Part shown: one piece after another, positions 13,476 through 64,000 of the stretch
How the letters are laid out: each line of letters opens with the position of its first letter
Position numbering within the stretch: the stretch's first letter is position 1
Source of the DNA: Phorcus lineatus
Taxonomy: Eukaryota > Mollusca > Gastropoda > Trochida > Trochidae
NCBI GenBank assembly: GCA_921293015.1
Contig: OV121089.1
Coordinates: 45,703,220 to 45,767,219 of the forward strand
Direction: 5' to 3'
Length of the DNA: 64,000 nt
Program-made: the position numbers and the translations under genes
Notes under the pieces: model-generated
What the model saw: the letters and a program-made list of their open reading frames with translations, nothing else
Told to the model about the DNA's origin: nothing
Database searches by the model: none

Positions 13476-14000
13476 CTTTTACTTTTCATACATGTATGTT
13501 GTACATGATTGGGGATATTTGTGTAGTACATAGAGTTTTGTTAGAACTTGCGTTATAATTACTAAAAGTATAGATTAAATTGTTAAAGTTAATGTTGGAA
13601 TACAATTTTAATAATTCCTTCTCATAGTATCAATTTATTCCCATGCAAGAATAATGTGCAAAATATATTGATTAATCAAAATAATACGAATACTTCAGTG
13701 TACATTTGCGACTACGTGGGTTTTTAATGTGTTATTGCATTTATGAGAGCGTGACCACTTGTATCTGTAAGTACCTAATTTGATAGACGCCAAACATGTT
13801 ATTGTCACATAATAGGCTGTGGTACTAAAGTACCTTTGTACTTACTTACTTGCTCTTAGCCTAATAAAGTATTGATATTCGAATGAATAACTTCTTTCAA
13901 TACTCAAGATTTGAGATGCAGATCAGTTTTCAAAGACCTTGTAAGTGATTGTGTTGACCTGTTGATGGTGATGTGTTTCTATTCATGCTGTCAGGACTAA

Positions 14001-14155
14001 ACTCTCTCTTTCTCTCTGTCTCTCTGTCTCTGTCTGTCTGTCTCTGTCTCTGTCTGTCTCTGTCTCTGTCTCTGTCTCTGTCTCTCTGTCTCTGTCTCTC
14101 TCTCTCTCTCTCTCTCTCTCTCTCTCTCTCTCTCTCTCTCTCTCTCTCTCTCTCT
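14001..14155. repeat. (TC)n/(TCTG)n tract, unit 1
   Basis: Interrupted TCTG repeats followed by a pure TC run. Any open frames here (Leu-Ser or Arg-Glu repeats) are by-products of the dinucleotide repeat. Confidence 0.95.
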
Positions 14156-15551
14156 TCATATCTCTTATTCATCCCTTCTATTTTCTTTGGTGGTCCTCCT
14201 TTTCCCCTAAATATATACCTCTAGGTATTGAAACAAATGCAGAATGTATCATTTCACAAAGGTTAAATTTGGGCAGTCTTTTCTTTTCCGATTTATTTTT
14301 GGTGGTTTTCAAGTGGCATATGGACAGTCCACTCTTCATGCAGTACCTTTAGCTAATTTGCTTAACTCTTACGGGGGAAAAAAGCAGATGTAATTGTAGG
14401 CTTTATCTCAATAGGTATGTCCTGAAGACGTCAAACATGCTGAGAGTTTAACGTGTAGCGGAATAGTATTCCAAAACTAGGGACATTATGTTAAAAGCAT
14501 TTTATTTTCAAATGATGTCAGCATAATGTGGGGAACGGTCAAAATATGTTGACACTTTGACAGAGAGTTTTGAGAGGAGTGTACTGGGTAAGGAGAGTTG
14601 AGAGATACACAAGAGTAAGCTTGTAAGGACACTTGTAAACTCGGTAAAGAGCTGTATAATCCATGTGTTATTATACAGGAAGCAATGCCTTATGATGTAT
14701 TGGTTGTCATTTGCTGAATGTAAACTAACATGCATTTACATTCTGTTATAACGTCAAACTTGTCCACGAACATTTACATGATTGAGACACAAAAAACTCA
14801 ATGTTCACGTTTGAAAAAAATGGCAATGTTGTCTGCAGTCACTCTTTCCGAATTTTGACTCCTCTTGGTCAGATACATGCATTAAATGTAATTACTCTTT
14901 TGTAATCATCTAATCAGCGTAGTGTCAGCCATTATCTGTGTCTCTCAGAAAGTGCACCGTAACTTTCTCAGTGTAATGTTCAAATCATACCTAGTCATGT
15001 CTAAGACGCTTAAATATCAAGACTCAGTGTAAATTGGAATGCTTGATTCTCATGTGATTTGCAAGCTTTCTCACTAGATTATAATGAACATAAACATTCT
15101 CAAAAACGAACTTGTAAGATATTTGAAACTATAATCGCGTAAACTGGCACGTGAGAGAAACCAAAATGATTACATACTCAGTGGTCAAACAGGATATGAA
15201 TTCAAGGTGATTGGAAGAATATGCTATTCCTCTTATTGATATTTTCAAAATCCATATCATTGCTGAAACCTTTATCTTTTAATTGAATTGCGTAATCTTA
15301 CTCATTACGTTTCTAAGGAATTTTCACAAAATGTGTGCTCGTATTTCTTCTAGGTTTAAATCAGGTTGAAATGGTTATTGTCCTCGCTTTGTGTTCATTC
15401 TTTATGCTTGTCAAATTCTTTCAATGACTTTGTCATTAGCAAATGAAAACTATAATCCAAACAATTTTAGGATAAGGTGTTTTTATTTCATTCAAAAAGT
15501 CACCACACATGCATTCACAAGTCAGAGCAGAAATGTGTTGATTGTTGGCAC

Positions 15552-16163
15552 TTAGTAGGCTCCGTAACCTGAAATGAAGTAAAGACATTCAATATGTTTG
15601 TATAAAAAAGGTGGGGATACAAATTTGTATAATAAGAAGTCAAGAGGTTATATCAATCTTTCTTCAAAAGAATATTATTCTAAAACTAACATTGTAAGGT
15701 GGAAATTGATAGAGAGAATTTATATCAGAATGAAAAAACGAAAAGAAGCTGTCCTTTATGAAAAAGTTCACAGCAAGAGTATCGTACCGAACAGGAATTG
15801 TTAACCATCGCTATCTTAAGAAAAACAGGTTTTAGATTAAGGGAATAAACATTAAAGATAATTACCTAGTCCCTTCATTCCGAAGCCTCCATACATCATG
15901 GGGTTGTAAAGTCCGTGTCCGCCATACATGAACGGGCTGTAGCCATGTCCAATACCTAAGCCAAGACCAGCTCCCATTCCGTAGCCATATCCATAGCCAT
16001 AGCCGAGTCCTGCTCCCATTCCGTAACCGAGTCCACCTCCCATTCCATAGCCATAGCCACCTCCAAGGCCTCCGAAACCTCCAATACCTCCAATACCATA
16101 GTCAATAGGCTCAGCAAAAGCAGCAACAGCCAGACAGGCAACCAGAGCGATTACTTTCATCAT
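15552..16163 (-). CDS. secreted Gly/Tyr/Met-rich protein, copy 1
   Basis: Join of 15866-16163 and 15552-15568 (minus), 104 residues. The 5' UTR exon is about 16375-16423, ending at donor ACA|GTAAGT; intron 1 ends TTTGTTTCATCAG before 16171. The start is the first ATG of that exon: ATGATGAAAG at 16163. Residues 1-17 (MMKVIALVACLAVAAFA) are a signal peptide with probable cleavage before EPI. The mature chain of about 87 residues has no Cys and is built from GYG, GMG and GLG repeats, then GHGYSPFMYGGHGLYNPMMY. Intron 2 is 15569-15865, donor CTAG|GTAATT, acceptor CATTTCAG; exon 3 adds YGAY and TAA. AATAAA lies at 15482-15487. Such composition is known from shell-matrix (shematrin-like), mucus, cuticle and adhesive proteins; which applies here is not shown. 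This copy has Asp21 (EPIDYG), shared only with copy 2. Confidence 0.9.
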
Positions 16164-16444
16164 GTTTTTTTCTGATGAAACAAATACAAATAATGAAATG
16201 TAGCAGTGACAAAAACAAACAAAATCACAAAAACAAGCTACTTAAGAATTCAAAAGAACGGTGATGACAGTAATTTTTAAAATCTCACAATCGTAAATCA
16301 AACATTGCATTCAAATGGAACCTTATATATCTCTGACAAAGTCAAGTTCACTTTATAAATATTGATTTACTTACTGTTTGTGTACAGGGTGCACTGACTA
16401 CTGAAGGCAAAGTGTTGTGATGTGACTAAATTAGCGAGGGGGAT

Positions 16445-61453: not shown

Positions 61454-62848
61454 TATTCATCCCTTCTATTTTCTTTGGTGGTCCTCCTTTTCCCCATAAT
61501 ATATACCTCTCAGTCGATAGGTATTGAAACAAATGCAGAATGTATTATTTCACAAAGGTTAAATTTGGGCAGTCTTTTCTTTTCCGATTTATTTTTGGTG
61601 GTTTTCAAGTGGCATATGGACAGTCCACTCTTCATGCAGTACCTTTAGCTAATTTGCTTAACTCTTACGGGGGAAACAAGCAGATGTAATTGTAGGCTTT
61701 ATCTCAATAGGTATGTCCTGAAGACATCAAACATGCTGAGAGTTTAACGTGTAGCGGAATAGTATTCCAAAACTAGGGACATTATGTTAAAAGCATTTTA
61801 TTTTCAAATGATGTCAGCATAATGTGGGGAACGGTCAAAATATGTTGACACTTTGACAGAGAGTTTTGAGAGGAGTGTACTGGGTAAGGAGAATTGAGAG
61901 ATACACAAGAGTAAGCTTGTAAGGACACTTGTAAACTCGGTAAAGAGATGTATAATCCATGTGTTATTATACAGGAAGCAATGCCTTATGATGTATTGGT
62001 TGTCATTTGCTGAATGTAAACTAACATGCATTTACATTCTGTTATAACTTCAAACTTGTCCACGAACATTTACATGATTGAGGCACAAAAAACTCAATGT
62101 TCACGTTTGAAAAAAATGGCAATGTTGTCTGCAGTCACTCTTTCCGAATTTTGACTCCTCTTGGTCAGATACATGCATTAAATGTAATTACTCTTTTGTA
62201 ATCATCTAATCAGCGTAGTGTCAGCCATTATCTGTGTCTCTCAGAAAGTGCACCGTAACTTTCTCAGTGTAATGTTCAAATCATACCTAGTCATGTCTAA
62301 GACGCTTAAATATCAAGACTCAGTGTAAATTGGAATGCTTGATTCTCATGTGATTTGCAAGCTTTCTCACTAGATTATAATGAACATAAACATTCTCAAA
62401 AACGAACTTGTAAGATATTTGAAACTATAATCGTGTAAACTGGCACGTGAGAGAAACCAAAATGATTACATACTCAGTGGTCAAACAGGATATGAATTCA
62501 AGGTGATTGGAAGAATATGCTATTCCTCTTATTGATATTTTCAAAATCCATATCATTGCTGAAACCTTTATCTTTTAATTGAATTGCGTAATCTTACTCA
62601 TTACGTTTTTAAGGAATTTTCACCGAAATGTGTGCTCGTATTTCTTCTAGGTTTAAATCAGGTTGAAATGTTTATTGTCCTCGCTTTGTGTTCATTCTTT
62701 ATGCTTGTCAAATTCTTTCAATGACTTTGTCATTAGCAAATGAAAACTATAATCCAAACAATTTTAGGATAACGTGTTTTTATTTCATTCAAAAAGTCAC
62801 CACACATGCATTCACAAGTCAGAGCAGAAATGTGTTGATTGTTGGCAC

Positions 62849-63460
62849 TTAGTAGGCTCCGTAACCTGAAATGAAGTAAAGACATTCAATATGTTTGTAT
62901 AAAAAAGGTGGGGATACAAATTTGTATAATAAGAAGTCAAGAGGTTATATCAATCTTTCTTCAAAAGAATATTATTCTAAAACTAACATTGTAAGGTGAA
63001 AATTGATAGAGAGAATTTACATCAGAATGAAAAAACGAAAAGAAGCTGTCCTTTATGAAAAAGTTCACAGCAAGAGTATCGTACCGAACAGGAATTGTTA
63101 ACCATCGCTATCTTAAGAAAAACAGGTTTTAGATTAAGGGAATAAACATTAAAGATAATTACCTAGTCCCTTCATTCCGAAGCCTCCATACATCATGGGG
63201 CTGTAAAGTCCGTGTCCGCCATACATGAACGGGCTGTAGCCATGTCCAATACCTAAGCCAAGACCAGCTCCCATTCCGTAGCCATATCCATAGCCATAGC
63301 CGAGTCCTGCTCCCATTCCGTAACCGAGTCCACCTCCCATTCCATAGCCATAGCCACCTCCAAGACCTCCGAAACCTCCAATACCTCCAATACCATAGCC
63401 AATAGGCTCAGCAAAAGCAGCAACAGCCAGACAGGCAACCAGAGCGATTACTTTCATCAT
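62849..63460 (-). CDS. secreted Gly/Tyr/Met-rich protein, copy 15
   Basis: Join of 63163-63460 and 62849-62865 (minus), 104 residues; AATAAA at 62779-62784. Short form with Gly21 and LYSPMM; keeps Phe in GGFGMKG, unlike copy 14. Last gene in the window; the array continues to the right. Confidence 0.9.
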
Positions 63461-63740
63461 GTTTTTTCTGATGAAACAAATACAAATAATGAAATGTAGC
63501 AGTGACAAAAACAAACAAAATCACAAAAACAAGCTACTTAAGAATTCAAAAGAACGGTGATGACAGTAATTTTTCAAATCTCACAATCGTAAATCAAACA
63601 GTGCATTCAAATGGAACCTTATATATCTCTGACAAAGTCAAGTTCACTTTATAAATATTGATTTACTTACTGTTTGTGTACAGGGTGCACTGACTACTGA
63701 AGGCAAAGTGTTGTGATGTGACTAAATTAGCGAGGGGGAT

Positions 63741-63747
63741 CTTTATA
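63741..63747 (-). promoter_or_regulatory. TATA box, copy 15
   Basis: TATAAAG; predicted first exon about 63671-63719. Confidence 0.7.
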
Positions 63748-64000
63748 GTCGGAAATCTTCCTCTTTGCACCTATCCTACTGCCTCAGGCTCTGAGACTGA
63801 AATTCTGATCAATTAGTTGATTGCATAATGTTTAATCAGGACAGCAATTAATCGCCCTTTTTACAAAACACAAACTTGGACACTGGTGAAGATATTTCCA
63901 TAGAACAAATGTGTTGTTTGTGCTTGAGATTTACTATGATGAAAAACACTCTACGTTATTTCTTTCTTAAGAAAGCTATGATTTACCTATTAACAATTTT

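Follow-up and report, generated by a model that had tools for sequence, protein, structure and literature searches.

A 64,000-nt window of the genome of the thick topshell Phorcus lineatus (contig OV121089.1, positions 45,703,220 to 45,767,219) carries a tandem array of 15 near-identical copies of a gene for a small protein that is rich in glycine (Gly), tyrosine (Tyr) and methionine (Met). Recent amplification or homogenization explains its uniformity. As to function, we put at about one half the probability that it is a recently amplified, homogenized array of one structural-protein gene whose product would be made by the mantle for the shell or periostracum, a reading based on analogy with mantle proteins of other molluscs.

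Organization and homogenization of the array

A BLAST search with one unit as query, covering the window and its flanks, revealed head-to-tail units from window position 13478 onward, and the whole array corresponded to positions 45716697-45768924 of chromosome 9 (C15). It comprised 15 full units of 3283-3430 bp, each with one gene, and a partial sixteenth lacking a gene. Full units started at 13478, 16841, 20180, 23610, 27036, 30428, 33845, 37243, 40656, 44049, 47446, 50794, 54122, 57460 and 60849. The fifteenth ended at 64131, and the window thus holds 14 units whole and, but for its last stretch, unit 15, whose gene was complete. In a 20-mer scan, repeats were spaced predominantly 3282-3436 bp apart between approximately 13.5 kb and the window end; left of 13478, repeated 20-mers made up no more than 1% per kb. 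These results bear out the head-to-tail array of 3.4-kb units, about 14.9 of them in the window, that a first-pass annotation of the same DNA had described. That annotation had taken the array to be open at the right edge, which was incorrect: the partial unit (64132-65705, 1574 bp) ends it 1.7 kb beyond the window. A motif check indicated that the gene start and the TATA motif were absent from this partial unit. The earlier count of at least 15 copies held for 15 full genes, all in the window, with unit 16 adding none. One CT-rich tract of 80-212 bp was present in each unit (15/15) and was a main contributor to the differences in unit length. Open reading frames, inspected by eye only, gave no second gene that stood out inside the unit.

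Pairwise identity among the 15 units averaged 98.99% (98.35-99.82) over 3.3 kb and 99.22% without the CT-rich tract. Identity at this level over 3.3 kb excludes a chance origin of the repeat. Identity dropped with distance, from 99.33% between neighbours to 98.53% between the two end units. Among the 42 two-state sites that were informative, 27 had variants shared by a contiguous block of units; when the unit order was shuffled in 2000 trials, the number of such sites averaged 3.2 and reached a maximum of 19. A unit tree joined units 10-15 (support 96), 14-15 (support 100) and 5-6 (support 90), with support of 13 to 75 at the remaining nodes. The units are near-identical and neighbours are the most alike, as in a homogenized multicopy array, and this pattern is characteristic of local unequal exchange. 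Arrays of such a kind are already known; that of Phorcus lineatus is unusually uniform.

At about 15.5 units, the array has probably been trimmed or rearranged at one edge or more. The left edge coincides with the missing end of a dispersed repeat of approximately 460 bp or more (Table 1). Four other copies of this repeat were found in 314 kb, one of them at window 8800-9259, and these four continued for at least another 60 bp or so; of a sixth copy, a short fragment was present at -103 kb. The copies at 8800-9259 and 13072-13478 were mutually inverted.

The gene and its predicted product

All genes lay on the minus strand, one per unit, with exon boundaries predicted from sequence alone. A TATA box preceded three exons: exon 1 was non-coding, exon 2 held almost the entire coding sequence, and exon 3 contributed 17 coding nt; an AATAAA motif followed (Table 1). 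The TATA box TATAAAGATC, the exon 1 donor CAAACA/GTAAGT (in unit 1, at a distance of 77 bp from that box), the acceptor TTTCATCAG directly before the ATG, the donor CTAG/GTAATT and acceptor TTTCAG of the second intron, and the AATAAA (65 bp past the stop in unit 1) were each found in 15/15 units. The claim of a complete gene in every unit was confirmed for these motifs and failed for the frame of unit 10, which was shifted; reading frames were intact in the other 14 of 15 units. A 9-bp in-frame stretch was missing in 6 of the 15 units, giving 104 residues, and present in nine, giving 107 residues in the eight intact ones. In unit 7 (36269-36566), three G-to-A changes lay within 13 coding nt, and all of them changed the amino acid. 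Units 5/6, 10 and 14 also had variants in their coding sequence.

The product starts with MMKVIALVACLAVAAFA, followed by EPI, and ends with KGLGYGAY. By eye, the signal was placed at 17 residues with cleavage after AFA. The mature chain would then have 87-90 residues and be free of cysteine (Cys), with 44.8-46.7% Gly, approximately 16% Tyr and approximately 8% Met. In the 90-residue mature form we counted 42 Gly (46.7%), 14 Tyr (15.6%), 7 leucine (Leu; 7.8%), 7 Met (7.8%), 5 isoleucine, 1 lysine (Lys), 0 arginine (Arg) and 0 Cys residues, and the mature chain was nearly uncharged, with an isoelectric point (pI) of about 6-7, and of about 7 in the 90-residue form. Of the 14 intact copies, 12 ended in GYGAY, and units 5 and 6 ended in GYRAY. 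Sequence and composition agreed with the Cys-free, Gly/Tyr/Met-rich chain with a signal-like N-terminus described before; the mature length of 87 residues given with it applied to the short form, the longer form having 90.

No Pfam match was obtained for the protein at an E value of 1. A PDB search returned four matches at E values up to 1 (best 0.0045), which look like chance similarity in Gly-rich composition. Within the window, there was no Rfam match at gathering score and no tRNA. When the genome was searched with the protein, 15 of the 16 matches fell in the window and the remaining one on C5 (L014, C5:14848224-14848355). The latter was rejected as a paralogue, being by eye a hexanucleotide-type simple repeat whose translation in frame is Gly-rich. 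Apart from this artefact, no paralogue outside the array was found at an E value of 0.001 in this search, which scored the best candidates (37/37) and may have let distant relatives escape. Gly-rich frames (at least 40 codons, at least 12 Gly per 40 residues) in 314 kb comprised the 15 array frames, three that overlap (107.2 kb) and a single one (174.6 kb), in window coordinates. Inspected by eye, the last four were taken for low-complexity frames without relation to the array.

Function and copy number

A small, signal-bearing, Cys-free and nearly uncharged Gly/Tyr chain suggests a Tyr-cross-linked structural material. Given the parallels in abalone and pearl-oyster mantle proteins, we ranked a mantle product for the shell or periostracum first and operculum or foot products next. 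A bulk extracellular material, as already supposed in the first-pass annotation, is the best reading of the protein; among vetigastropods, a published mantle protein parallels it closely, although by analogy. In the mechanism that we propose, each unit would act as a self-sufficient gene. The product would be secreted and its 17-residue signal removed, leaving the Gly/Tyr/Met/Leu chain of 87-90 residues, which may self-associate and become cross-linked through Tyr in the shell or periostracum matrix. Its source would be the mantle edge, as for Has-tsfgr1 of abalone and the shematrins of pearl oysters. Many promoters may sum to a high output, and unequal crossing-over would keep the copies alike. 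The portion of the species genome note drawn on here mentions RNA sequencing from muscle only.

Has-tsfgr1 was the closest published analogue found. Its 114 residues include a 17-residue signal, repeats of Gly/Leu/Tyr and the C-terminus GYKGY; it is expressed at the shell-field edge and the outer mantle fold, and its authors likened it to shematrins (PMC2034539). The array protein is alike in its vetigastropod host, its size (104/107 versus 114 residues), its 17-residue signal, its Gly/Leu/Tyr-rich composition and its five C-terminal residues ending in Tyr (GYGAY versus GYKGY). The description of Has-tsfgr1 in the source text does not mention Met, and no array is reported there (PMC2034539).

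Substitutions among the copies were examined in coding and non-coding parts. Eleven coding substitutions, 8 nonsynonymous and 3 synonymous, gave a ratio of 0.88 on 242 and 79 sites (p 0.74). With the CT-rich tract left out, variable columns amounted to 12/458 in exons, 13/500 in introns and 85/1948 in intergenic sequence, and neither exons (Fisher p 0.11) nor introns (p 0.07) differed significantly from the last. The copies thus give no sign of constraint relative to one another, the power being low at 1% divergence. The view that the uniformity is a sign of dosage selection, put forward in the earlier annotation, draws no support from the coding ratio or the exon diversity. Over a longer time, the three internal GYGMGxGLG repeats of the protein may be informative: synonymous/nonsynonymous changes between the repeat pairs were 4/0, 4/1 and 3/2. 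In the first of these pairs the motif was kept while its codons drifted, a hint of constraint at few sites.

These data bear on whether the amplification was mostly neutral, that is, an unequal-crossing-over burst without dosage function in which the ancestral gene was useful and the extra copies dispensable. This explanation concerns the copy number and not the product, and its odds overlap with those of both structural-protein readings; we consider it quite possible, though short of even odds. The 8:3 substitution counts are consistent with it, as are an exon diversity not significantly below that of intergenic sequence, the toleration of a broken unit 10, and a second array 50 kb away with 2,199-bp units and no recognized coding family. 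Against it, the frame is intact in 14 of 15 units and every unit retains its splice, TATA and poly(A) motifs, but this counts for little at 1% divergence. A tentative proposal, which we hold to be less likely than not, is that the array serves dosage, much as chorion or histone arrays do, and so supplies a structural protein of the shell or periostracum. If so, the approximately 15 near-identical copies may vary in number between individuals and tune the output of material.

Several points weigh against a mantle product for the shell. Has-tsfgr1, close in plan, was compared by description and is not filed as a homologue; its GGYGLGL motif is absent from the array protein, and its Gly content exceeds 52%, compared with 45-47%. 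The protein search, with no paralogue outside the array, gives no evidence of common descent with any known shell gene. Moreover, the substitutions among copies look neutral, and the GYGMGxGLG repeats offer few sites, with 1 and 2 nonsynonymous changes in two of the pairs.

The same kind of bulk structural protein might instead serve the horny operculum, pedal mucus or adhesive, the radula or an egg coat. A Gly/Tyr-rich, Cys-free composition would suit any Tyr-cross-linked extracellular material, and Gly-rich silk-like proteins are described from many such materials. We nevertheless regard these products as unlikely: the closest vetigastropod analogue, in size, signal length and C-terminus, is expressed at the mantle edge, and the abalone work, in the text cited, linked the operculum to other genes and not to the Gly-rich one (PMC2034539).

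Array copy number is error-prone, and the array might be an assembly artefact or a collapsed or expanded repeat. This is very unlikely because every one of the 15 units carried private substitutions (1-13), the variant blocks were ordered and no N occurred within 114 kb around the array. The likeness of neighbours also favours correct assembly. Non-array sequence flanks the array on both sides, and the species genome note gives HiFi coverage of 32x and a quality value (QV) of 56.5. That the genes form a family of Gly-rich antimicrobial peptides, expanded in the way of other immune genes of molluscs, is scarcely credible: the protein is small, signal-bearing, Cys-free and tandemly encoded, and Cys-free mussel myticalins are clustered, but the chain is not cationic, the copies are near-identical and not diversified, and no Gly-rich antimicrobial peptides are known in bivalves according to the source text, whose scope does not extend to gastropods.

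If the array does encode a mantle structural protein, its copy number could be set against latitude, growth and the thickness of the shell; according to its genome note, the species has a shifting range edge. With one Lys and no Arg in its common form, the chain would largely escape shell proteomics based on trypsin, and abundant components of this type may therefore have been missed.

Surrounding features and comparison with known systems

The second tandem array lay at window coordinates 116178-127639 (C15:45819397-45830858, loci L047-L048) and comprised approximately 5.2 copies, its units being 99.3-99.96% identical to the query unit. Its two longest frames had no Pfam match. An inverted repeat at window 2362-2899 and 3097-3634, with 538-nt arms that are 98% complementary and 197 nt apart, forms a large fold-back structure. 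In the upstream flank (window coordinates -65316 to -63674, L040), a 25-bp minisatellite of about 66 copies matched at 99% and was open in several frames. In 4.3 kb of the mitochondrial contig (C74), reading frames named by eye ran nad3, nad2, cox1, cox2, atp6, an order that is ancestral for molluscs and unlike that of bivalves; on this order and on the species genome note, which gives 18 chromosomes, a bivalve origin was rejected.

Table 1. Coordinates of the array, its genes and the adjoining repeat, in window positions.
Feature	Position	Strand	Remarks
Tandem array, in-window part	13478..64000		BLAST of one unit and unit alignment
CT-rich tract, unit 1	14002..14155		
TATA box, unit 1	16442..16451	-	TATAAAGATC
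Exon 1, unit 1, non-coding	16375..16421	-	Start placed 30 bp from TATA box (putative); intron from 16374
Exon 2 coding part, unit 1	15866..16163	-	17-residue signal and most of mature chain, 104-residue form
Exon 3 coding part, unit 1	15552..15568	-	Adds YGAY and stop; AATAAA at 15487
Unit 2 coding span including intron 2	18892..19503	-	Intact
Unit 3 coding span	22312..22932	-	Intact; 107-residue form
Unit 4 coding span	25748..26359	-	Intact
Unit 5 coding span	29131..29751	-	Intact; C-terminus YRAY not YGAY; exon 3 placed by offset
Unit 6 coding span	32548..33168	-	Intact; C-terminus YRAY; exon 3 placed by offset
Unit 7 coding span	35955..36566	-	Intact; three clustered G-to-A changes
Unit 8 coding span	39359..39979	-	Intact
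Unit 9 coding span	42750..43370	-	Intact
Unit 10 exon 2	46464..46769	-	Broken; 1-bp deletion leading to early stop; second 1-bp deletion in exon 3
Unit 11 coding span	49497..50117	-	Intact; exon 3 placed by offset
Unit 12 coding span	52825..53445	-	Intact
Unit 13 coding span	56163..56783	-	Intact
Unit 14 coding span	59566..60177	-	Intact
Unit 15 coding span	62849..63460	-	Intact
Truncated dispersed-repeat copy	13072..13478		Missing end at left array edge

Shematrins of Pinctada are described as Gly-rich framework proteins of the prismatic layer with a C-terminus ending in Tyr, and five tandemly arranged shematrin genes lie on two scaffolds in the pearl oyster. The array protein resembles them in its Gly-rich repetitive chain with a signal, its C-terminal Tyr and its tandem genes. 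Mollusc shell-matrix clusters such as these five genes are described as holding named, distinct members, whereas one gene is present 15 times at 99% identity here. If its product is indeed a shell material, the 15-copy array would make such material a case of gene dosage and concerted evolution. Shematrins also carry a basic C-terminal cluster before the last Tyr, which is absent from the array protein with its KGLGYGAY end.

The Gly-rich boundary protein of abalone, Has-GRBP, is expressed in the nacre zone of the mantle and contains [GMGA]n and [QQQV]n repeats (PMC4944945). Its relative in H. laevigata is described as a major nacre protein rich in Gly, alanine (Ala), glutamine (Gln) and Met. 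GMGA occurs twice in the array protein; in contrast to the [QQQV]n repeats and the Ala/Gln-rich relative, the array chain contains no Gln. Abductin, the scallop hinge rubber, carries two Cys conserved close to its N-terminus, three conserved Tyr residues and decapeptide repeats of GGFGGMGGGX (PMC13052691). The array protein is similarly Gly/Met-rich and would likewise be extracellular, and abductin is thought to be Tyr-cross-linked. Identity with abductin was rejected, as the mature chain has no Cys and GGFGGMGGG is absent; to our knowledge, gastropods have no hinge.

Histone, ribosomal RNA, chorion and silk arrays consist of many near-identical head-to-tail units homogenized by unequal exchange, and they are established dosage systems. 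The Phorcus lineatus array resembles them in both layout and homogenization, and any dosage role of its own is putative.

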